Positions 19,031 to 27,783 of a stretch of DNA of 64,000 bases are shown piece after piece. The stretch lies in NCBI GenBank assembly GCA_902593165.1, contig CACJHI010000009.1, positions 1 through 64,000 of the forward strand, in the 5' to 3' direction. The notes under the pieces were generated by a model, which did no database searches, was not told where the DNA came from, and was given only the letters and a program-made list of their open reading frames with translations. The DNA is from an uncultured Bacteroidota bacterium. GTDB lineage: Bacteria; Bacteroidota; Bacteroidia; Flavobacteriales; Flavobacteriaceae. Within the stretch, counting starts at the first letter, position 1. Every line of letters begins with the position of its first letter. A program made the position numbers and the translations under genes.

Positions 19031-19035
19031 TCTGT

Positions 19036-19095
19036 AACAGAGGAAGGATTTGACTGATTGCAACCTCTCAAAAAAATTGCTAAAGCAGTAATTCT
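19036..19095 (+). promoter_or_regulatory. SAM-II riboswitch aptamer
   Basis: Stem P1 AGAGG (19039-19043) pairs with CCTCT (19064-19068). Its loop holds GATTTGACTGATTGCAA (19047-19063), close to the SAM-II core GATTTnAC...ATTGCAA. Downstream comes the invariant GCTAAA (19079-19084), then CAGT (19086-19089), which pairs with ACTG in the loop (19053-19056) to make the expected H-type pseudoknot. The position before metK-metY-metX agrees with SAM sensing. There is no intrinsic terminator between it and metK, so translational control is more likely. TGATTGC (19055-19061) is exactly complementary to GCAATCA (19103-19109), a possible competing fold. Confidence 0.9.
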
Positions 19096-19137: not shown

Positions 19138-20391
19138 ATGTCGTATCTATTTACGTCTGAATCTGTAAGTGAAGGACACCCTGATAAAGTTTCAGATCAA
19201 ATAAGTGATGGGATTCTCGATAACTTCCTAGCTTTTGATCCTAAAAGTAAAGTTGCGTGTGAGACATTAGTAACTACTGGCCAAGTTATACTTTCTGGTG
19301 AAGTGTCAAGTAATACTTATATAGATGTTCAAGAGATTGCCAGAGATATTATAAAAGATATTGGATATAACAATGATCAGTACAAATTCTCTGGAGAATC
19401 ATGTGCAGTAATGTCTCTAATTCATGAACAGTCAGAAGACATACTTAGAGGAGTAGAAAGAAGCATAAAAGAAGAACAAGGAGCTGGTGATCAAGGAATA
19501 ATGTTTGGTTATGCATGTAATGAAACTGAAAATTCAATTCCTCTAACTTTGGATATTGCAAATAGACTTCTATTGGAGCTCTCAAAACTTAGAAGATCTA
19601 AAGAGATTCCATATTTAAGGCCAGATTCAAAATCTCAGGTTACAATAGAATATGACGATAATGATGTCCCCATAAGGATAGATACAATTGTTGTTTCAAC
19701 TCAACATGATGAGTTCGATAATGATGATGAGAAAATGTTAAACAAAATTAGGGAAGATATAATCAAAATTTTAATCCCAATAGTAAGAGATACATATGCT
19801 CCTGAAATTCAAAAATTATTTAATGATGATATCAAATTCTATGTAAATCCAACAGGAAAATTTGTCATTGGCGGTCCACATGGTGATACTGGTTTGACTG
19901 GTCGAAAAATTATAATTGACACATATGGGGGGAGAGGAGCTCACGGAGGAGGTGCTTTTAGTGGAAAGGATCCAAGTAAAGTTGACAGAAGTGCAGCATA
20001 TGCAGCTAGACATATTTCAAAAAATCTTGTAAAGGCTGGAGTATCCGATGAAATATTAATTCAACTTGGCTATGCAATTGGAGTTGCTGAACCCGTATCA
20101 CTCAATATAGATACTTGCGGTAAGTCTAAACTTAACATTTCAGATTCTAAACTATCCGAAATAGTAAACGAAATATTTGATTTAAAACCACATTCGATTG
20201 AATCAAGATTCAAACTTAGAGATCCTATATATCTTGAGACTGCATCATATGGTCATATGGGTAGAAAATCTGAAAAAAAAACCAAGACATTTAATTCTAA
20301 ATACTCTGGAGTTAAAAAAATTGAGGTTGAACTATTCCCATGGGAAAAATTAGAGTATGTAAATCAATTAATTAAAACACTTAAATTATGA
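19138..20391 (+). CDS. metK: S-adenosylmethionine synthetase
   Basis: MetK makes SAM from methionine and ATP. The 417-residue product has TSESVSEGHPDKVSDQISDG at the N-terminus with the ATP-contacting His, GAGDQGIMFGYA, and GGPHGDTGLTGRKIIIDTYG with the phosphate and Mg2+ residues, then GGGAFSGKDPSKVDRSAAY. It is the first gene after a SAM-II riboswitch, so its product represses its own operon by feedback. The stop overlaps the metY start by four bases (ATGA). Confidence 0.97.
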   Translation: MSYLFTSESVSEGHPDKVSDQISDGILDNFLAFDPKSKVACETLVTTGQVILSGEVSSNTYIDVQEIARDIIKDIGYNNDQYKFSGESCAVMSLIHEQSEDILRGVERSIKEEQGAGDQGIMFGYACNETENSIPLTLDIANRLLLELSKLRRSKEIPYLRPDSKSQVTIEYDDNDVPIRIDTIVVSTQHDEFDNDDEKMLNKIREDIIKILIPIVRDTYAPEIQKLFNDDIKFYVNPTGKFVIGGPHGDTGLTGRKIIIDTYGGRGAHGGGAFSGKDPSKVDRSAAYAARHISKNLVKAGVSDEILIQLGYAIGVAEPVSLNIDTCGKSKLNISDSKLSEIVNEIFDLKPHSIESRFKLRDPIYLETASYGHMGRKSEKKTKTFNSKYSGVKKIEVELFPWEKLEYVNQLIKTLKL

Positions 20392-21659
20392 GTCAAAATG
20401 ATCAAACTCTAGCATTACATGCTGGACATAACACAACAAAAACAGAGGGAACTAGAGCAGTTCCAATATATCAAACAACATCATATGTGTTTGATGACAC
20501 TGACCATGCAGCAAAATTATTTTCACTTGCTGAACCTGGATATATATATACAAGACTTAATAATCCCACAGCAGATGTCCTTGAGCAAAGGTTAGCATCT
20601 TTAGAGGGAGGAATAGCTGCGGTTGCAACTTCATCTGGTTCAGCAGCTTTAGCTACAACATTACTGACACTTCTTAAGACAGGAGATCATATTGTATCTT
20701 CTAATAGCCTTTATGGTGGTACATATAACTTACTTAACGTAACATTACCTAGATATGGAATAACAACAACTTTCGTTGACCCTAATGAGGTTGATAATTT
20801 TTCTAAGGCAATTAATGAAAATACAAGAGCTATCTACATTGAAAGTATGGGGAATCCAAAGTTAGATGTCTTAGATATTGAATCAATTTCAAAAATTGCA
20901 AAAAAAGCAAAGCTTCCGTTAATTGTAGATAATACTGTCGCTACTCCATATTTGTTAAAACCTATAAATTATGGTGCTGATATTGTTATTCATTCTACTA
21001 CAAAATATATAACAGGTAATGGAACCTCAATTGGGGGGATAATAATTGATGCTGGTAATTTTGATTGGAGCAATGGATTGTTTGATGAATTTACAGAACC
21101 ATCTGCAGGCTATCACGGGTTAGTTTATCATGATGTGTTGGGTCCAGCAGCGTTTATTGCTAAGGTTAGGATTGAAGGTTTGAGAGATCTTGGAAGTGCT
21201 CCAAGTCCTTTCAATTGTTTTCAAACAATACAGGGATTAGAGACTTTATCTGTTAGAATCAAAAAACATTCTGAAAATGCACTCAAGGTCGCAGAATGGT
21301 TAGAGAAACAAAGTCAAGTTGCTTGGGTGAATTATCCTGGTCTTAAGTCCTCAAAATATTATGACTTATCTCAAAAATATTTGAAAGACGGTCAAAGTGG
21401 AATTGTAACATTTGGATTAAAAGGAGGATTTGATTCTGCAAAAAAACTAACTGATAGTACAAAAATATTTTCTCTATTAGCTAATTTTGGAGATTCTAAG
21501 TCTTTAATCATCCATCCTTCAAGTACTACACACCAACAATTAAATGAGGAACAACAAATTTCAACAGGTGTAACTTCTGATTTAGTTCGATTGAGTATTG
21601 GTCTTGAAGATCCAGCTGACTTGATCGATGACTTAAAAAATGCAATAAAATCTTTGTAA
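20388..21659 (+). CDS. metY: O-acetylhomoserine sulfhydrylase
   Basis: This 423-residue PLP enzyme of the Cys/Met metabolism family makes homocysteine from O-acetylhomoserine and sulfide. It begins QTLALHAGHNTTKTEGTRAVPIYQTTSY, has YIYTRLNNPTADVLEQRLA, and the PLP lysine in HSTTKYITGNGTSIGGII. The length over 420 and the GNGTSIGG segment favour MetY over cystathionine synthases. The partner substrate maker, metX, is three bases downstream. Confidence 0.93.
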   Translation: MSQNDQTLALHAGHNTTKTEGTRAVPIYQTTSYVFDDTDHAAKLFSLAEPGYIYTRLNNPTADVLEQRLASLEGGIAAVATSSGSAALATTLLTLLKTGDHIVSSNSLYGGTYNLLNVTLPRYGITTTFVDPNEVDNFSKAINENTRAIYIESMGNPKLDVLDIESISKIAKKAKLPLIVDNTVATPYLLKPINYGADIVIHSTTKYITGNGTSIGGIIIDAGNFDWSNGLFDEFTEPSAGYHGLVYHDVLGPAAFIAKVRIEGLRDLGSAPSPFNCFQTIQGLETLSVRIKKHSENALKVAEWLEKQSQVAWVNYPGLKSSKYYDLSQKYLKDGQSGIVTFGLKGGFDSAKKLTDSTKIFSLLANFGDSKSLIIHPSSTTHQQLNEEQQISTGVTSDLVRLSIGLEDPADLIDDLKNAIKSL

Positions 21660-21662
21660 ATA

Positions 21663-22628
21663 TTGAAAGATGAACTAAAAAAGATAGTAATTGAAAACTT
21701 TGAACCCTCATCAGGTAATAAATTTCAAAGTTTTCAATTAACCTATCAGTTTTTTGGAAAGAAATTAGGTACTGCTCCAATTATTCTTATTAATCATGCG
21801 TTAACTGGGAATTCTCTTGTCTGTGGAAAAAATGGATGGTGGAGTGAAATTGTAGGTATAGATAAGGCAATTGATTTAAATGAATACACTGTATTATGTA
21901 TTAATATACCAGGAAACGGATTTAATGAGAACAACTTTGATCATAGTATAGAATTAAACCTAGGAGATATAGCACATCTATTTATTAAAGTTTTAGAAAA
22001 ATTAAAAATTTCTAAACTATACGCTATAATTGGTGGATCTATTGGAGGATGTTTATCATGGGAAATGATTGCTATAAAAAATGACATAGCAGATAAGATT
22101 ATTCCTATAGCTTCTGATTGGAAAGCAAATGACTGGTTAATAGCTAATACCTTTTTACAGGATAGAATTTTAGAAAACTCAAGAGATCCTGTCGGAGATG
22201 CCAGAATTCATGCAATGTTGTTCTACCGCACACCTGAGTCTTTAAATCAAAGATTCTCAAGATCAAAGAACATTGAAAAAGGAATATATAATGTTGAATC
22301 TTGGCTTGATCATCATGCAGTAAAACTCCATCAAAGGTTTAGTCTTAATTCCTATAAATTTTTAAATAATCTTTTAAGATCTACTGATATTACTAGAGAT
22401 GATTTAAGTTTAGAGTCTAAAATTAAGCCTTCAAAATCAGAAATTCATATAATATCAGTAGACTCAGATATTTTCTTTCTACCTGATGAAGATAAAATCA
22501 CTACCTCAAGGCTAAAAAAACAAGATGTAAAAATTGAAAACCATATTATTGAATCAACTCATGGTCATGATGCTTTTTTGATTGAAACAAAACAAATTTC
22601 AGATATCTTTACTAAAATTTTAAAATAA
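21663..22628 (+). CDS. metX: Homoserine O-acetyltransferase
   Basis: MetX acetylates homoserine, giving the substrate for MetY. This alpha/beta hydrolase fold protein of 321 residues has INHALTGNS (oxyanion region), the nucleophile S126 in GGSIGG, an Asp in SVDSDIFFL and the His in ESTHGHDAFL. A MetX with GGSMGG is more usual; Ile for Met is conservative. The start is TTG at 21663, supported by the family N-terminus and the 3-base spacing from metY. No ATG is available nearby. Confidence 0.92.
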   Translation: MKDELKKIVIENFEPSSGNKFQSFQLTYQFFGKKLGTAPIILINHALTGNSLVCGKNGWWSEIVGIDKAIDLNEYTVLCINIPGNGFNENNFDHSIELNLGDIAHLFIKVLEKLKISKLYAIIGGSIGGCLSWEMIAIKNDIADKIIPIASDWKANDWLIANTFLQDRILENSRDPVGDARIHAMLFYRTPESLNQRFSRSKNIEKGIYNVESWLDHHAVKLHQRFSLNSYKFLNNLLRSTDITRDDLSLESKIKPSKSEIHIISVDSDIFFLPDEDKITTSRLKKQDVKIENHIIESTHGHDAFLIETKQISDIFTKILK

Positions 22629-23056
22629 TGGCAATTTATTTAGACAGAATTAATGACAAGTATTTATTTGAACTTTCAAATGAAAATGGACACAAGGTTT
22701 TACTAGATCGAAAATATTCACCTGATTATAATGTCCAAGGGTCAAGTCCTATGGAATTATTATTAATGGGGGTAGCTGGATGTAGTAGTATTGATGTTAT
22801 TTCAATATTAGAGAAACAAAAGCTAAATCCAGACTCTTATAAAATGGAAGTTGAAGGGGAAAGAGAGTCTACACCAGGTAAGCCCTGGAAAAGTATTCAT
22901 GTGAAATTGTATATTGAAGGTAACATTCCAAGTGATAAAATTATACGTGCTGCAGCTTTAAGCTTTGATAAATATTGTTCAGTTTCCAAAAACCTAGAGA
23001 AGTCAACTTCAATTGATCATTCAATTTATCTCAATGGGTCTTTAATCAAAAAATAG
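22628..23056 (+). CDS. OsmC-family protein
   Basis: This 142-residue protein has the OsmC/Ohr fold with the two reactive cysteines in VAGCSSIDVIS and FDKYCSVSKNL, so it could reduce organic peroxides or handle sulfur species. It is joined to metX by TAATG, making it the last gene of the SAM-II-controlled operon. Linkage to methionine genes hints at a role near sulfur metabolism, but this is inference. Confidence 0.88.
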   Translation: MAIYLDRINDKYLFELSNENGHKVLLDRKYSPDYNVQGSSPMELLLMGVAGCSSIDVISILEKQKLNPDSYKMEVEGERESTPGKPWKSIHVKLYIEGNIPSDKIIRAAALSFDKYCSVSKNLEKSTSIDHSIYLNGSLIKK

Positions 23057-23065
23057 GATAAAAAG

Positions 23066-23096
23066 TTTGTTTTTATTGATACCTATTATACTTTTG
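23066..23096 (+). promoter_or_regulatory. Promoter of the aromatic amino acid operon
   Basis: TTTG at 23066-23069 and TACTTTTG at 23089-23096, 19 bases apart, match the Bacteroidota -33/-7 consensus. The -7 box ends seven bases before the leader-peptide ATG, so the leader mRNA has almost no untranslated 5' end. Confidence 0.7.
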
Positions 23097-23102
23097 TAAA
23101 TT

Positions 23103-23168
23103 ATGAACAACAAATTTAATTTTTACTTTAACTATTATTTCTACTTCCTAGACCAGAAGGCAGGATAA
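23103..23168 (+). CDS. Phe/Tyr-rich attenuator leader peptide
   Basis: This short frame codes for 21 residues starting MNNKFNFYFNYYFYFLDQ, with five Phe and four Tyr within eleven positions (residues 5-15), and ends with TAA at 23166-23168. Such a run is very unlikely by chance in a 66-base frame. It lies between a promoter and an intrinsic terminator that immediately precedes pheA, the arrangement of a ribosome-mediated attenuator. Its job is to be translated, not to make a working protein: stalling at Phe or Tyr codons reports low charged tRNA. It is too short for routine gene callers. Confidence 0.85.
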   Translation: MNNKFNFYFNYYFYFLDQKAG

Positions 23169-23202
23169 CTATGTAATTAAAAATTAAAATATTATAGTCC
23201 TG
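23161..23202 (+). promoter_or_regulatory. Antiterminator pairing of the attenuator
   Basis: CAGGATAACTAT (23161-23172) contains the leader stop codon and can pair with ATAGTCCTG (23194-23202), the left arm of the terminator, with TAA bulged out. A ribosome at the stop codon would cover the upstream strand and let the terminator form. A ribosome stalled on the last Phe codon (23145-23147) would reach to about 23160 and leave the strand free. Confidence 0.75.
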
Positions 23203-23223
23203 TCAAATCAGGACTTTTTTTTT
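23196..23223 (+). terminator. Intrinsic terminator (attenuator) before pheA
   Basis: A perfect 7-bp stem AGTCCTG (23196-23202) / CAGGACT (23209-23215), loop TCAAAT, is followed directly by T's through 23223. It ends three bases before the pheA ATG, so it can only serve as a regulated terminator of the operon. Confidence 0.92.
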
Positions 23224-23225
23224 AT

Positions 23226-24038
23226 ATGAAAGTATCAATTCAAGGAATAAAAGGATCATTCCACCATAAGGTGACAGCTGAGTACTTTAGTTCATTCGAA
23301 TTAAATGAATGTTCAACTTTTGATAAACTTGTTAAGTCTGTCATTAATGAAGATTCAGATTATGGAGTAATGGCTATTGAAAACTCTATAGCTGGGTCAA
23401 TACTTCCTAATTATGCTTTAATAGATGAATATGATTTGTCAATAACTGGTGAATATAGTCTTAGTATTGATCATAATCTAATGTGTCTTTCGGGTCAAAG
23501 TATTGATAATATCAGGGAAGTTCATTCTCATCCAATGGCATTGCTTCAGTGTACAAAATTTTTTACTAAACATCCCAATATAAAGCTAATCGAGAGTGAG
23601 GATACAGCCTTATTTGCAAAAAAAATCAGTGAAAATCAAATTAATGGAGTGGGGGCAATAGCTAGTAAAGAAGCTGCTGAGATATATGATTTAGAGATTT
23701 TGAATTCTTCAATTCAAACAATCAAGAATAATATGACAAGATTTGTCATAGTTGAAAAGAATAAGAAAAATATATCAAATTTTAATAAAGCTGCTCTCAA
23801 GTTTATCCTTGATCATAAAAGAGGTAGTCTAGCATCAATATTAAATATGATGAGCGATTGTAACTTGAATCTTACAAAAATCCAATCTCTTCCAGTAATT
23901 AAAACACCTGGTAAATATGCATTCTTTGTAGACATTACTTTTGATTCAATTGAAAATTATAAAAAAGCAATCAAGATTATTGAGCTTATGGCTCAAGAGT
24001 TAAAAATACTTGGTGAATATAAAGATCAAAAATTATGA
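23226..24038 (+). CDS. pheA: Prephenate dehydratase
   Basis: PheA converts prephenate to phenylpyruvate. The 270-residue product has the start VSIQGIKGSFHHKVTAEYF, DYGVMAIENSIAGSI, the EVHSHPMALLQC loop and NNMTRFVIVEK with the catalytic Thr region. A C-terminal ACT domain (GSLASILNMMSDCNLNLTKI) should bind Phe for feedback inhibition. There is no fused chorismate mutase; that domain is on the DAHP synthase three genes later. It is the first structural gene after the Phe/Tyr attenuator and overlaps tyrA by four bases. Confidence 0.95.
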   Translation: MKVSIQGIKGSFHHKVTAEYFSSFELNECSTFDKLVKSVINEDSDYGVMAIENSIAGSILPNYALIDEYDLSITGEYSLSIDHNLMCLSGQSIDNIREVHSHPMALLQCTKFFTKHPNIKLIESEDTALFAKKISENQINGVGAIASKEAAEIYDLEILNSSIQTIKNNMTRFVIVEKNKKNISNFNKAALKFILDHKRGSLASILNMMSDCNLNLTKIQSLPVIKTPGKYAFFVDITFDSIENYKKAIKIIELMAQELKILGEYKDQKL

Positions 24039-24883
24039 AAGTTGGTATAGTTGGTTTAGGATTAATAGGTGGATCGATAGGATTAAAACTGAAAGATTTA
24101 TATGATAATATGGTAATTTATGGTTATGATATAGATGATGATTCAATTAGTTATTGTCTAAAAAATAAAATTATTGATGTAAAATTTGATGAAGAATTTA
24201 TATCTGAGTTAGATTTTCTATTTCTTGCTATACCTGTTGAATCAATTAAGAATCAACTTTCTCACTACTTGAATAAAATATCTGATAAAACACTAATAAT
24301 TGATCTAGGTTCTACAAAATTTCAAATCTGTAATTCAGTTGAGAATAATCAAAACAGAAAGAATTATTTAGCTGCTCATCCAATTGCTGGAACCGAGTTT
24401 TCTGGACCTAATTCAGCAACAAAAGACTTATTCGATGACAAGGTTATGATTCTATGTGATACTGAAAAAACAGATCCCAATTTATTATTAGATGCTAAAA
24501 AAATCATTAAATCATTAGGGATGAGTATCAAAACAATGAATTCAAAAGAACACGATAAACATATTGCCTATGTGTCTCATCTTTCACATATTTCATCTTT
24601 TATGTTAGGTAAGACAGTCATGGACAAAGAAGATGATGAACATGCTATATATAATATGGCAGGTAGTGGATTTGAATCAACGGTAAGATTAGCAAAGAGC
24701 TCACCTGAAATGTGGTCTTCAATATTTGTTGAGAATAAAAAAAATATTATTGAGTCTCTTGATGAATACATTTCAAATATTAATAATTTTAAAAAATTAA
24801 TTGAGGTCAGTGATCAAAAAACTCTAAATGATGAAATGAGGAGAATCAATGGAATTAAAAAAATATTAAAAGGAATTAATTAA
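24035..24883 (+). CDS. tyrA: Prephenate dehydrogenase
   Basis: TyrA oxidatively decarboxylates prephenate to 4-hydroxyphenylpyruvate. The 282-residue protein starts with a Rossmann motif GIVGLGLIGGSIG (4-16), then LAIPVESI, LIIDLGSTK, AAHPIAGTEFSGP with the prephenate-binding His, and HDKHIAYVSHLSH. It has no ACT domain. It overlaps pheA and is followed six bases later by the DAHP synthase fusion. Confidence 0.94.
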   Translation: MKVGIVGLGLIGGSIGLKLKDLYDNMVIYGYDIDDDSISYCLKNKIIDVKFDEEFISELDFLFLAIPVESIKNQLSHYLNKISDKTLIIDLGSTKFQICNSVENNQNRKNYLAAHPIAGTEFSGPNSATKDLFDDKVMILCDTEKTDPNLLLDAKKIIKSLGMSIKTMNSKEHDKHIAYVSHLSHISSFMLGKTVMDKEDDEHAIYNMAGSGFESTVRLAKSSPEMWSSIFVENKKNIIESLDEYISNINNFKKLIEVSDQKTLNDEMRRINGIKKILKGIN

Positions 24884-24889
24884 GTAATT

Positions 24890-25972
24890 ATGGAAAATAA
24901 AAAAGAATATCGTAACTGGCTTGATCAAATGAATCTAGATCATCCACTTGTTATAGCTGGCCCATGTAGTGCTGAGACTGAGGAACAAGTCTTAAAAATT
25001 GCGCATGAATTAAAAGATAGCGACGTAACTGCATATCGTGCTGGAATTTGGAAGCCAAGAACTAGACCTGGAATGTTTGAAGGGGTTGGAGCTATTGGTT
25101 TGAAGTGGCTTCAAAAAGTTAAAAAAGAAACGGGACTCATGTTAGCAACAGAAGTTGCTAATTCTGTTCATGTTGATCTTGCACTAGAGCATGATGTAGA
25201 TATATTATGGATAGGAGCTCGATCAACTGTTAGCCCTTTTATTGTTCAAGAAATTGCAGATGCACTTAAAGGAACAGATAAAATAGTTTTAATTAAAAAC
25301 CCAGTAAATCCCGACCTTTCGTTATGGATGGGAGGTATTGAGAGAATATATACTGCTGATATAAAAAATATTGGAGTAATTCATAGAGGTTTTTCATCTT
25401 ATGATAAATCAAAATATAGGAATAATCCTGAATGGCAAATCGCTGTTGAATTTCAAAATAATTTTCCAGATATTCCACTAATATGTGACCCTTCTCATAT
25501 AGCAGGAAGAAGAGATTTAATCTTTGATTTAAGTCAAACTTCACTTGACTTAAATTATGACGGATTAATGATTGAATCTCATTGGGATCCAGATAATGCT
25601 TGGAGTGATGCAGCGCAACAAGTAACTCCAGAACGATTAATTGAGATAATGAGAGACCTCAAGATTAGAGATAAAACATCGCAAGGGGAAGACTACCAGA
25701 ATAAACTTAATAACTTAAGATCACAAATTGATGCAGCTGATCAAAATTTATTGACAACTCTTGGAAAGAGAATGGAAGTTGCTAAAGGTATTGGAAAACT
25801 AAAGTCTGAGAATAACGTGGCTATTCTTCAAAATAAAAGATGGAATGAAATTTTAGGGAAGATGATTCTAGATGGCGAAGACCATGGTTTAAGTGAAGAA
25901 TTTATTTTAAGAATTTTCAAAGCAATTCATCAAGAGTCAATTAATAATCAAAAAAAAATACTAAATAAATAA
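24890..25972 (+). CDS. DAHP synthase / chorismate mutase fusion
   Basis: This 360-residue bifunctional enzyme joins the first shikimate step to the first Phe/Tyr branch step. Residues about 15-260 are a type I-beta DAHP synthase: PLVIAGPCSAET, GIWKPRTRPGMFEGVG, TEVANSVHVDLA, LIKNPVNPDLSLW, ICDPSHIAGRRD. After a linker, residues about 270-360 are an AroQ-type chorismate mutase (LRSQIDAADQNLLTTLGKRM). In this fused class the mutase domain commonly gives feedback control of the synthase. It completes the enzyme set made by this attenuated operon. Confidence 0.95.
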   Translation: MENKKEYRNWLDQMNLDHPLVIAGPCSAETEEQVLKIAHELKDSDVTAYRAGIWKPRTRPGMFEGVGAIGLKWLQKVKKETGLMLATEVANSVHVDLALEHDVDILWIGARSTVSPFIVQEIADALKGTDKIVLIKNPVNPDLSLWMGGIERIYTADIKNIGVIHRGFSSYDKSKYRNNPEWQIAVEFQNNFPDIPLICDPSHIAGRRDLIFDLSQTSLDLNYDGLMIESHWDPDNAWSDAAQQVTPERLIEIMRDLKIRDKTSQGEDYQNKLNNLRSQIDAADQNLLTTLGKRMEVAKGIGKLKSENNVAILQNKRWNEILGKMILDGEDHGLSEEFILRIFKAIHQESINNQKKILNK

Positions 25973-25981
25973 TTCAAAAAA

Positions 25982-27163
25982 ATGTTATCAGATAAAATTA
26001 ATTCTTTACCAATTTCTCAAACTGTAGCAATGACTGCAAAAGCCCATGATCTAAAAAATCAAGGAGTTGATGTTATTACTTTAAGTGCTGGTGAACCAGA
26101 CTTTGACATACCTGATTATATTAAAGAGGCTGCTGTAAATGCTATTAATGAAAATTATCATAAATATTCTCCAGTTGACGGATTCCTAGATTTAAAAAAA
26201 GCAATTTGTAAAAAGTTTAAGAGAGATAATAACTTAGATTATAATACAGATCAGATTGTAGTTTCTACCGGAGCAAAACAATCAATTGCAAATGTATGTA
26301 TGTCATTAATAAATAAAGGTGATGAAGTAGTTATTCCTACACCTTATTGGGTAAGTTATAGTGCAATGGTTTCTCTAGCAGATGGAATTCCAGTTTTTGT
26401 TCATCCTAATGAGGATGCTAACTATAAGGTTACTGCAGCACAGATCGAATCAGCTATCACTGATAAAACTAAAATGATAATGCTAAACTCACCTAATAAC
26501 CCAAGTGGTTCTGTATTTACAAAGGAGGAGTATCTGGAATTTTCAAAAGTGCTTATGAAGTATCCTAAGATAATAGTTGTTTCAGATGAAATTTATGAAC
26601 ATATAAATTATGGAGTTGAAAGTGTAAGTTTTGCGTCTTTGCCTGGAATGTATGAAAGGACAGTTACTGTAAATGGGATATCGAAAGCCTTTGCAATGAC
26701 TGGATGGAGAATAGGCTACCTTGGAGCTCCAAAGATTCTAGCTAAGGCATGTAATAAAATGCAAGGCCAGATTACCAGTGGTGCAAATTGTATTGCTCAA
26801 AGAGCTGCAATTACAGCACTAGAAGAGTCGCCAAATAGAATAAAATATATGGTTGATGAATTTAAAATTAGACGAGATTTAATTATCGATCTAGTAAATC
26901 AGATTAATGGTTTTAATGTAAAGCAGCCTCCGACTGGAGCTTTCTATATTTTTCCAGAAGTTTCTCAGCTTTTTGGAAAGACCTTTGATGGGCATTTAGT
27001 TAATAATGCTAATGATTTATCAATGCTAATTCTTGAAAAAGCTCATGTAGCAACTGTCCCTGGAGATGCCTTTGGATACCCCCATTGTATAAGGATTTCA
27101 TATTCTGCATCACGTGAACAAATAAAAGAGGCTATTAGTAGAATTAAAGAATTATTAACTTGA
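25982..27163 (+). CDS. Class I aminotransferase (aspartate/aromatic)
   Basis: This 393-residue PLP aminotransferase has TLSAGEPDFDIPDYI at the start, STGAKQSIANVC, MLNSPNNPSGSVF, SDEIYEHI and the PLP lysine in NGISKAFAMTGWRIGY. Its place after pheA, tyrA and DAHPS/CM suggests that it makes Phe and Tyr from their keto acids, though the same fold also serves Asp. It overlaps rsmG by four bases (TTGA). Confidence 0.9.
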   Translation: MLSDKINSLPISQTVAMTAKAHDLKNQGVDVITLSAGEPDFDIPDYIKEAAVNAINENYHKYSPVDGFLDLKKAICKKFKRDNNLDYNTDQIVVSTGAKQSIANVCMSLINKGDEVVIPTPYWVSYSAMVSLADGIPVFVHPNEDANYKVTAAQIESAITDKTKMIMLNSPNNPSGSVFTKEEYLEFSKVLMKYPKIIVVSDEIYEHINYGVESVSFASLPGMYERTVTVNGISKAFAMTGWRIGYLGAPKILAKACNKMQGQITSGANCIAQRAAITALEESPNRIKYMVDEFKIRRDLIIDLVNQINGFNVKQPPTGAFYIFPEVSQLFGKTFDGHLVNNANDLSMLILEKAHVATVPGDAFGYPHCIRISYSASREQIKEAISRIKELLT

Positions 27164-27783
27164 TAGATCTCGATAAACACTTTTCTAAGATATCTCAGGA
27201 TCAGCTTAAAAAATTTAATAGTTTAATCCAATTATATAAAAGTTGGAATTCAAAAGTTAACCTTATATCTCGAAAAGATATTGATAATCTGTATGTAAAT
27301 CATATACTTCATTCTCTTTCAATTGCTAAGATCCATGAATTCATAGACGATACAGATGTTCTTGATGTTGGAACAGGAGGAGGGCTTCCAGGCATACCTC
27401 TGGCTATTCTTTTCCCAAAAGTAAATTTTACACTACTAGATAGCATTTCAAAAAAAATTAAAGTTGTAGAAGATATATCTAAGCAGTTGTCTCTAACCAA
27501 TGTAAGAACTGTCAATGATAGAGCTGAAAATCATAACCTAAAGTATGATTTTATAATTTCAAGAGCCGTATCTAAAATGGATGGATTTTATTCAATGGTT
27601 AATAAGAATATTAAATTAAAATCAAGAAGTAATATACCTAATGGAATAATTTCTCTTAAGGGTGGAGACTTGGAAGATGAACTAAAGAACTTCAATGATT
27701 ATAAGATATTTGAAATATCAGAATTTTTTTCAAATGATTTTTTTAAAACAAAAAAGATAGTCTTTATCCCTTACTCTAATTAA
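27160..27783 (+). CDS. rsmG: 16S rRNA (guanine-N7) methyltransferase RsmG
   Basis: RsmG (GidB) methylates a guanine of the 16S rRNA 530 loop. The 207-residue product has LYKSWNSKVNLISRKD, YVNHILHSLSIAK, the SAM motif VLDVGTGGGLPGIPLAILFP, and VNDRAENH...SRAVS. The start is TTG at 27160, overlapping the TGA of the aminotransferase; the family N-terminus fits this start. It is a passenger in the aromatic operon. Confidence 0.94.
   Translation: MIDLDKHFSKISQDQLKKFNSLIQLYKSWNSKVNLISRKDIDNLYVNHILHSLSIAKIHEFIDDTDVLDVGTGGGLPGIPLAILFPKVNFTLLDSISKKIKVVEDISKQLSLTNVRTVNDRAENHNLKYDFIISRAVSKMDGFYSMVNKNIKLKSRSNIPNGIISLKGGDLEDELKNFNDYKIFEISEFFSNDFFKTKKIVFIPYSN

Follow-up and report, generated by a model that had tools for sequence, protein, structure and literature searches.

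A predicted ribosome-mediated attenuator with a Phe/Tyr-rich leader peptide ahead of the pheA operon of a Flavobacteriaceae bacterium

The region directly upstream of pheA in a 64,000-nt stretch of DNA from an uncultured Flavobacteriaceae bacterium (hereafter the window; source genome of 1.23 Mb, 75 % complete) very probably encodes a classical ribosome-mediated transcription attenuator, which would control an operon of pheA, tyrA, a DAHP synthase/chorismate mutase (DAHPS/CM) gene and an aminotransferase gene. The hallmarks of such a device found here are an ORF rich in codons for the products of the operon, an intrinsic terminator (as sequence), a mutually exclusive choice between the antiterminator helix 2:3 and the terminator helix 3:4, a hairpin 1:2 and a geometry suited to ribosome stalling. 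On re-reading the sequence we found the coordinates given in the original prediction for the promoter, leader, strand 2 and terminator to be correct. The regulatory elements are:

23066..23069, + strand: -33 element TTTG of a Bacteroidetes sigma-A type promoter (from sequence)
23089..23096, + strand: -7 element TACTTTTG, with the predicted transcription start at 23101-23102 (from sequence, conservation and the spacing known from F. johnsoniae)
23103..23168, + strand: leader peptide ORF MNNKFNFYFNYYFYFLDQKAG of 21 codons, ATG at 23103, stop codon TAA at 23166-23168 (from sequence)
23115..23147, + strand: regulatory codons, nine Phe/Tyr codons at codons 5-15, the final three C-ending (TTC TAC TTC)
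23146..23165, + strand: hairpin 1:2, formed by TCCT at the last Phe codon and the strand 2 AGGA (from the fold and the swap test)
23161..23172, + strand: strand 2, left strand of the antiterminator, CAGGATAACTAT, containing the stop codon, with its start 13 nt past the last Phe codon
23194..23202, + strand: strand 3, ATAGTCCTG, right strand of the antiterminator and left arm of the terminator (from sequence)
23196..23223, + strand: intrinsic terminator AGTCCTG-TCAAAT-CAGGACT followed by a T-run (as sequence)

The terminator stem (23196-23215) has seven pairs, four of them G-C, and a loop of six, its T-run ends at 23223, and it is the sole terminator-like site on the + strand within 21000-25000. 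Strand 2 can pair with strand 3 given a 3-nt bulge. The hairpin 1:2 segment is weak in the window (-5.2 kcal/mol), and since it engages TCCT with the AGGA of strand 2, it is exclusive with the antiterminator 2:3. The minimum-energy fold of the whole leader contains both the terminator and the TCCT/AGGA hairpin, and the transcript from 23103 to 23224 folds better than its own shuffles (z = -2.89; one of 200 equally good).

Profile matches to the downstream genes agreed with the operon content given in the original prediction (pheA, tyrA, DAHPS/CM and aminotransferase), which fits Phe and Tyr synthesis. The genes are:

23226..24038, + strand: pheA, prephenate dehydratase (best NCBIfam match NF008865, 202.3 bits, below the cut-off of 219)
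24035..24883, + strand: tyrA, prephenate dehydrogenase (NF006307, 347.2 bits, above the cut-off of 295)
24890..25972, + strand: DAHP synthase/chorismate mutase fusion (best match NF009239, 180.9 bits, below the cut-off of 279; separate families match both parts)
25982..27163, + strand: PLP aminotransferase related to aspartate aminotransferases (best match NF041091, 393.4 bits, below the cut-off of 550)
27160..27783, + strand: rsmG, 16S rRNA G527 methyltransferase, overlapping the aminotransferase gene (TIGR00138, 132.6 bits, above the cut-off)

Frames of equal lengths and in the same order, rsmG included, were present in all five same-genus loci examined, and the rRNA methyltransferase gene rsmG may also be under the attenuator of the pheA operon. 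On the upstream side, a SAM-II riboswitch (RF01726, 78.7 bits, 19034-19093) precedes a frame at 19138 that reads by eye as metK; it is followed by co-directional OAH sulfhydrylase-, metX- and osmC-like genes, the run ending at 23056, about ten bases before the promoter of the pheA leader.

The 21-codon frame with nine Phe/Tyr codons at codons 5-15 was borne out and departs strongly from chance. Its Phe/Tyr density, nine in 12 codons, was the highest among the 774 distinct small ATG frames found on both strands of the 64-kb window (8-50 codons), the runners-up having seven. When the upstream regions of 70 relatives were dinucleotide-shuffled (n = 3500), at least seven Phe/Tyr codons appeared in 25 shuffles and nine in none. 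All leader scans considered ATG starts only.

A pheA match was found in 74 of 100 related genomes, 23 of them within the genus of the source genome (25 genomes), and upstream DNA was read for 70 of the 74 (G064, G077, G083 and G096 were left out; loci L031-L040 were omitted as copies of same-genus genomes). Within the genus, all 23 loci carry a leader of 19-23 codons with 7-9 Phe/Tyr in 12 codons, and all 23 carry a terminator at the same position before pheA. Across the upstream regions of the 70 relatives, at least seven Phe/Tyr in 12 codons occurred in 60 and at least five in 63, and 57 combined at least seven with a terminator found by the scan; in seven relatives with pheA (L117, L120, L126, L140, L143, L145 and L150) no Phe/Tyr leader was found. 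Among the best matches listed from GTDB (L041-L110, mostly Flavobacterium), a leader with at least seven Phe/Tyr in 12 codons and a terminator were present in 70 of 70 loci. The original prediction had named as evidence against itself relatives that keep the terminator and lose the Phe/Tyr frame; what we found is that leader and terminator travel together.

The same arrangement extends through the class. A pheA match was obtained in 42 of 149 genomes (the window's own included), and 38 upstream regions were read, of which 25 had a leader with at least six Phe/Tyr in 12 codons; outside the family and order the count was 22 of 35 loci. The class-wide scan returned no Phe/Tyr leader in 13 of 38 loci, and these together with the seven relatives above indicate that attenuator control is dispensable. 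Two loci in other families of the class, L174 (G230) and L182 (G153), show two tandem Phe/Tyr leaders upstream of pheA with a terminator-like stem after each, the former found by the scan and the latter by eye, unreported by the scan; they are possibly double attenuators.

The gene upstream of the leader behaves differently. An osmC-like gene lies there in 23 of 23 same-genus loci. It is missing from that place in all 75 other loci whose upstream DNA spans 1000 nt or more (L024-L030 and 68 of L041-L110, among the best matches listed), yet all 75 retain leader and terminator. Conservation of the leader therefore follows pheA rather than the neighbouring gene upstream.

The original prediction had called for compensatory changes in both helices to be sought across relatives. 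Because spacer lengths were judged too different for alignment, we chose own-versus-swapped pairing tests over a column-by-column covariation count, scoring strand 2 by a simple pairing score against its own strand 3 or against the strand 3 of other loci. Fifty-eight representative loci entered the test and ten were dropped: six lacking a leader or terminator (L117, L120, L126, L140, L143 and L145), three with a leader in which the scan found no terminator (L142, L147 and L148), and L138, in which the scan chose a different terminator. For the remaining 48 loci, strand 2 scored 17.53 with its own strand 3 against 13.12 with swapped ones (0/10,000 permutations). The class-wide test began with 38 loci, of which 13 without a leader and one without a terminator were removed; the 24 kept scored 18.42 against 14.37 (0/10,000 permutations). 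Three of these 24 belong to the window's family, with L186 and L187 apparently the same contigs as L091 and L110, and the test was therefore repeated on the remaining 21 loci, all outside the order, giving 17.55 against 14.88 (0/10,000 permutations). The permutations ignore relatedness, but since kin loci should raise the swapped scores, this bias runs against the result.

The sequences that pair are diverse: the strand 2 forms CAGGAT, CGAGAC, ACGGGACT, GAGCGGGA, GAGGCTTTT, TCCGGG and AGAGCGGTC each match their own strand 3. Single loci often fail against the swapped mean (L015, 10.5 vs 10.6; L163, 14.0 vs 14.1; L172, 13.0 vs 16.0), the ungapped 2:3 runs seen within the genus are only 5-6 pairs long, and it is the summed score alone, not the individual loci, that is decisive. 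The two helices originally described, antiterminator 2:3 and terminator 3:4, are thus supported across relatives, and so is hairpin 1:2, which was absent from that description and scored 13.67 with own against 12.08 with swapped partners (48 loci; 0/10,000 permutations). In 36 of 48 loci the third-from-last Phe/Tyr codon has C as its final base, compared with 108 of 513 Phe/Tyr codons of the pheA sequence sampled, as pairing in 1:2 would require. This bias is strong at that codon only, the second-last being C-ending in 18 of 48 loci and the last in 10 of 48, which equals background.

Spacing between the regulatory codons and strand 2 is likewise conserved. In 46 of 48 loci strand 2 starts 7 to 14 nt past the last dense Phe/Tyr codon, in the other two it starts at +4, and class-wide it starts at +7 to +15 in 22 of 24 loci. 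The stop codon, by comparison, varies across relatives from +6 to +45 nt, counted from the last Phe/Tyr codon. A ribosome covers at most 12 nt downstream of the stop codon according to PMC4833913; with this footprint and the window's coordinates, strand 2 would be masked by a ribosome at the stop codon and left free by one on codon 15. The ribosome geometry originally proposed, with a stop codon embedded in the antiterminator strand, therefore fits the window, where strand 2 lies at +13 and holds the stop, but the stop lies far from strand 2 in some relatives (at +39 in L044), so that the stop-masking half of the geometry is not universal. It is the spacing of strand 2 from the regulatory codons that is conserved, not the position of the stop.

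Taken as a classical attenuator, the region would work as follows. RNA polymerase would start almost at the leader AUG, as the promoter spacing implies, and a ribosome would load on the 5′ end and translate the Phe/Tyr-rich leader. With an ample supply of charged tRNA-Phe, and probably of charged tRNA-Tyr, the ribosome would reach the stop codon and cover strand 2 (23161-23172), strand 3 would pair with strand 4, and transcription would end in the T-run. A ribosome waiting on one of the last Phe/Tyr codons would break 1:2 and leave strand 2 free; 2:3 would then form in place of the terminator and the operon would be read. Were the leader left untranslated, 1:2 would sequester part of strand 2, making the terminator the default outcome.

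The attenuator kind is known already, as is a family-level pheA element in outline. In E. coli the pheA leader (pheL) comprises a Phe-rich leader ORF, alternative hairpins and a terminator before pheA. The window's leader shares the rich ORF, the alternative hairpins and the terminator before pheA, whereas it mixes Phe and Tyr, lacks a Shine-Dalgarno site, is predicted to have its start codon at the 5′ end of the RNA and would control pheA-tyrA-DAHPS/CM-aminotransferase. The E. coli element is described as a leader controlled by Phe-tRNA (PMC11802643). Nearer to the window, a 2021 study of F. psychrophilum presents strong clues that leader-peptide attenuation operates before amino acid operons and lists, ahead of pheA, a structured element with no Rfam match whose conservation extends to other Flavobacteriaceae (PMC9723704). 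The statement in the original prediction that classical attenuators are best known from Proteobacteria consequently needs qualifying, such elements being not only proteobacterial.

By its description this element resembles the window's leader in gene, in family and in being a structured leader without an Rfam match, and the window probably holds a marine-genus copy of it, a reading compatible with the attenuator. The reported conservation in Flavobacteriaceae and the leader plus terminator in all 70 listed GTDB loci favour this identity; on the other side, the main-text section of PMC9723704 that describes the pheA element does not call it a Phe/Tyr leader and gives no codon or helix anatomy, and the window's leader is predicted to be leaderless. 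Our literature search, which left subscription journals largely outside, found no codon and helix anatomy for a Phe/Tyr leader of this phylum. What merits specialist attention is the predicted leaderless start, the candidate two-amino-acid leader and the spread through the class. With its anatomy and covariation, the pheA leader would extend a textbook mechanism to a phylum whose translation starts do without Shine-Dalgarno sites, and the attenuator type appears widespread there, in Flavobacteriales and in other orders of the class.

That the leader senses both Phe and Tyr is plausible. In the densest 12-codon stretches of the 48 leaders, Tyr accounts for 149 of the 333 non-Phe residues, against a baseline of 3.2 % of non-Phe residues in pheA (in those loci with enough pheA sequence), and every one of the 48 leaders has a Tyr codon among its last seven codons; this enrichment and position argue that the Tyr codons are wanted, and the operon makes Tyr too (tyrA). 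It is nevertheless possible, although we consider it the less likely case, that Phe alone is sensed, with the Tyr codons serving as passive spacers whose codon shape is similar. In 36 of 48 loci it is Phe that occupies the last regulatory codon, and a precedent exists in the AroR leader of C. glutamicum, which precedes a DAHP synthase operon and, like the window's leader, holds Phe and Tyr (as Phe-Tyr-Phe). Ribosome stalling raises transcription there (PMC11802643, citing Neshat 2014), and in the account given in PMC11802643 Phe limitation acted on the operon whereas Tyr supply was without effect; AroR comes from another phylum. A Trp codon is present in 19 of 48 leaders and absent from that of the window. 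In L026, L115, L116, L118 and similar family members Trp stands inside the Phe/Tyr run (NWFYFFF), where it may sense Trp as well or serve 1:2 pairing.

Much less probable than either version of the attenuator is a plain terminator that ends the upstream met-osmC gene run, the Phe/Tyr-rich frame having arisen by chance in AT-rich DNA. This reading draws on the lack of any other terminator-like site on the + strand within 21000-25000, on the osmC-like gene that ends at 23056 and keeps its place in every same-genus locus, and on TTT and TAT being common in AT-rich DNA. We rejected it as very unlikely on the extreme Phe/Tyr density of the leader frame, the covarying alternative pairing seen in the swap tests, and the retention of leader and terminator at the 75 loci without an upstream osmC-like gene.

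Rfam searches at the gathering score matched no family to the pheA leader region. Phe_leader (RF01859) was the top of 12 weak matches between 23040 and 23260 (E up to 10), at 22.4 bits and E 0.096, and the pheA leader region aligns to its model positions 1-125; with a gathering cut-off of 55 bits, membership was rejected, and Phe_leader also gave no match at the gathering score in the relatives L006, L022, L041 and L166. A gap in Rfam is thereby indicated. A T-box, metabolite riboswitch or protein-controlled terminator overlapping a small ORF by chance is highly implausible, for although such systems too look like a structured, terminator-bearing leader before biosynthesis genes, neither a T-box nor a known riboswitch appeared at the gathering threshold or among the 12 weak matches, so that both were rejected for want of a covariance model match, and the conserved features are the codons and their distance from strand 2.

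The promoter of the attenuator carries a further prediction. TTTG, a 19-nt spacer and a -7 box occur in 23 of 23 same-genus loci, the window likewise, and the end of TACTTTTG lies 6-9 nt before the leader ATG in all 23. Many transcription starts of F. johnsoniae lie 4 or 5 nt past the -7 box (PMC6847099), and by this rule the box-ATG spacing predicts an untranslated leader of 1-2 nt in the window and of 1-5 nt in the genus, in support of the near-absent 5′ leader originally predicted. The leader ORF of the pheA operon is thus predicted to be leaderless, with its start codon near the RNA 5′ end, which is uncommon for the phylum: 87 % of F. johnsoniae messages with a probable promoter are reported to have leaders longer than 10 nt (PMC6847099), and 5.5 % of F. 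psychrophilum messages to be leaderless (PMC9723704). Outside the genus, a pattern search located boxes in 36 of 41 loci, a clear -33 element being absent from some of them, and the box-ATG spacing there is mostly 8-34 nt.

For C. glutamicum ilvBNC, an attenuator carried by a leaderless mRNA has been discussed (PMC11857589), which is like the prediction for the window in this respect and unlike it in sensing branched-chain amino acids, in belonging to another phylum and in having one hairpin that also blocks translation start. The pheA leader could offer a clean setting in which to study the pacing of ribosome and RNA polymerase on a leaderless message, and to ask whether one leader serves two amino acids. 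A fuller reading, which we put forward tentatively and judge unlikely to hold as a whole, is that this streamlined marine genus builds its attenuators on leaderless mRNAs and that rescue would thereby be available only to transcripts started at the local promoter, whose 5′ AUG would load a ribosome; readthrough RNA from the upstream SAM-II/met-osmC run would offer an internal AUG without a Shine-Dalgarno site, stay untranslated and terminate by default via 1:2. If this reading is true, a single terminator would have two roles, gating the operon under Phe/Tyr control and closing the neighbouring gene run, and the design would be reused for Trp before trpE.

We also looked at other biosynthetic loci in the genus. 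In four of the eight ilvD upstream regions fetched, which were examined, no similar leader was recognised. A hisG match was found in one of 25 same-genus genomes, the assemblies being incomplete (54-95 %); upstream of this hisG (L151 in G006) lies a small frame, MKLVTIHHHIHFAYRRS, with His codons, and the locus may be foreign because the genome is listed at 4 % contamination. A trpE match was present in 19 of the 25 genomes. Bacteroid-trp RNA (RF01692) is listed as a cis-regulatory RNA of Bacteroidetes (PMC2864571); at the gathering score it matched neither the window nor the Trp-leader loci L200 and L198, and no Rfam family matched L200 or L198 at that score. A 14-codon leader with WWW stood upstream of trpE in eight of eight loci fetched, with a promoter box 4-5 nt before the ATG in seven (the pre-ATG stretch of L202 was not captured) and, seen by eye, a terminator-like stem and T-run just before trpE. 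One representative is:

L200, about 1355-1399 (G000:C3), before trpE: Trp leader peptide MKLIKKYWWWNCEI, with the promoter box 4 nt before the ATG

This trpE leader looks alike in design to that of pheA, and would provide a second case of a predicted leaderless leader in the genus.
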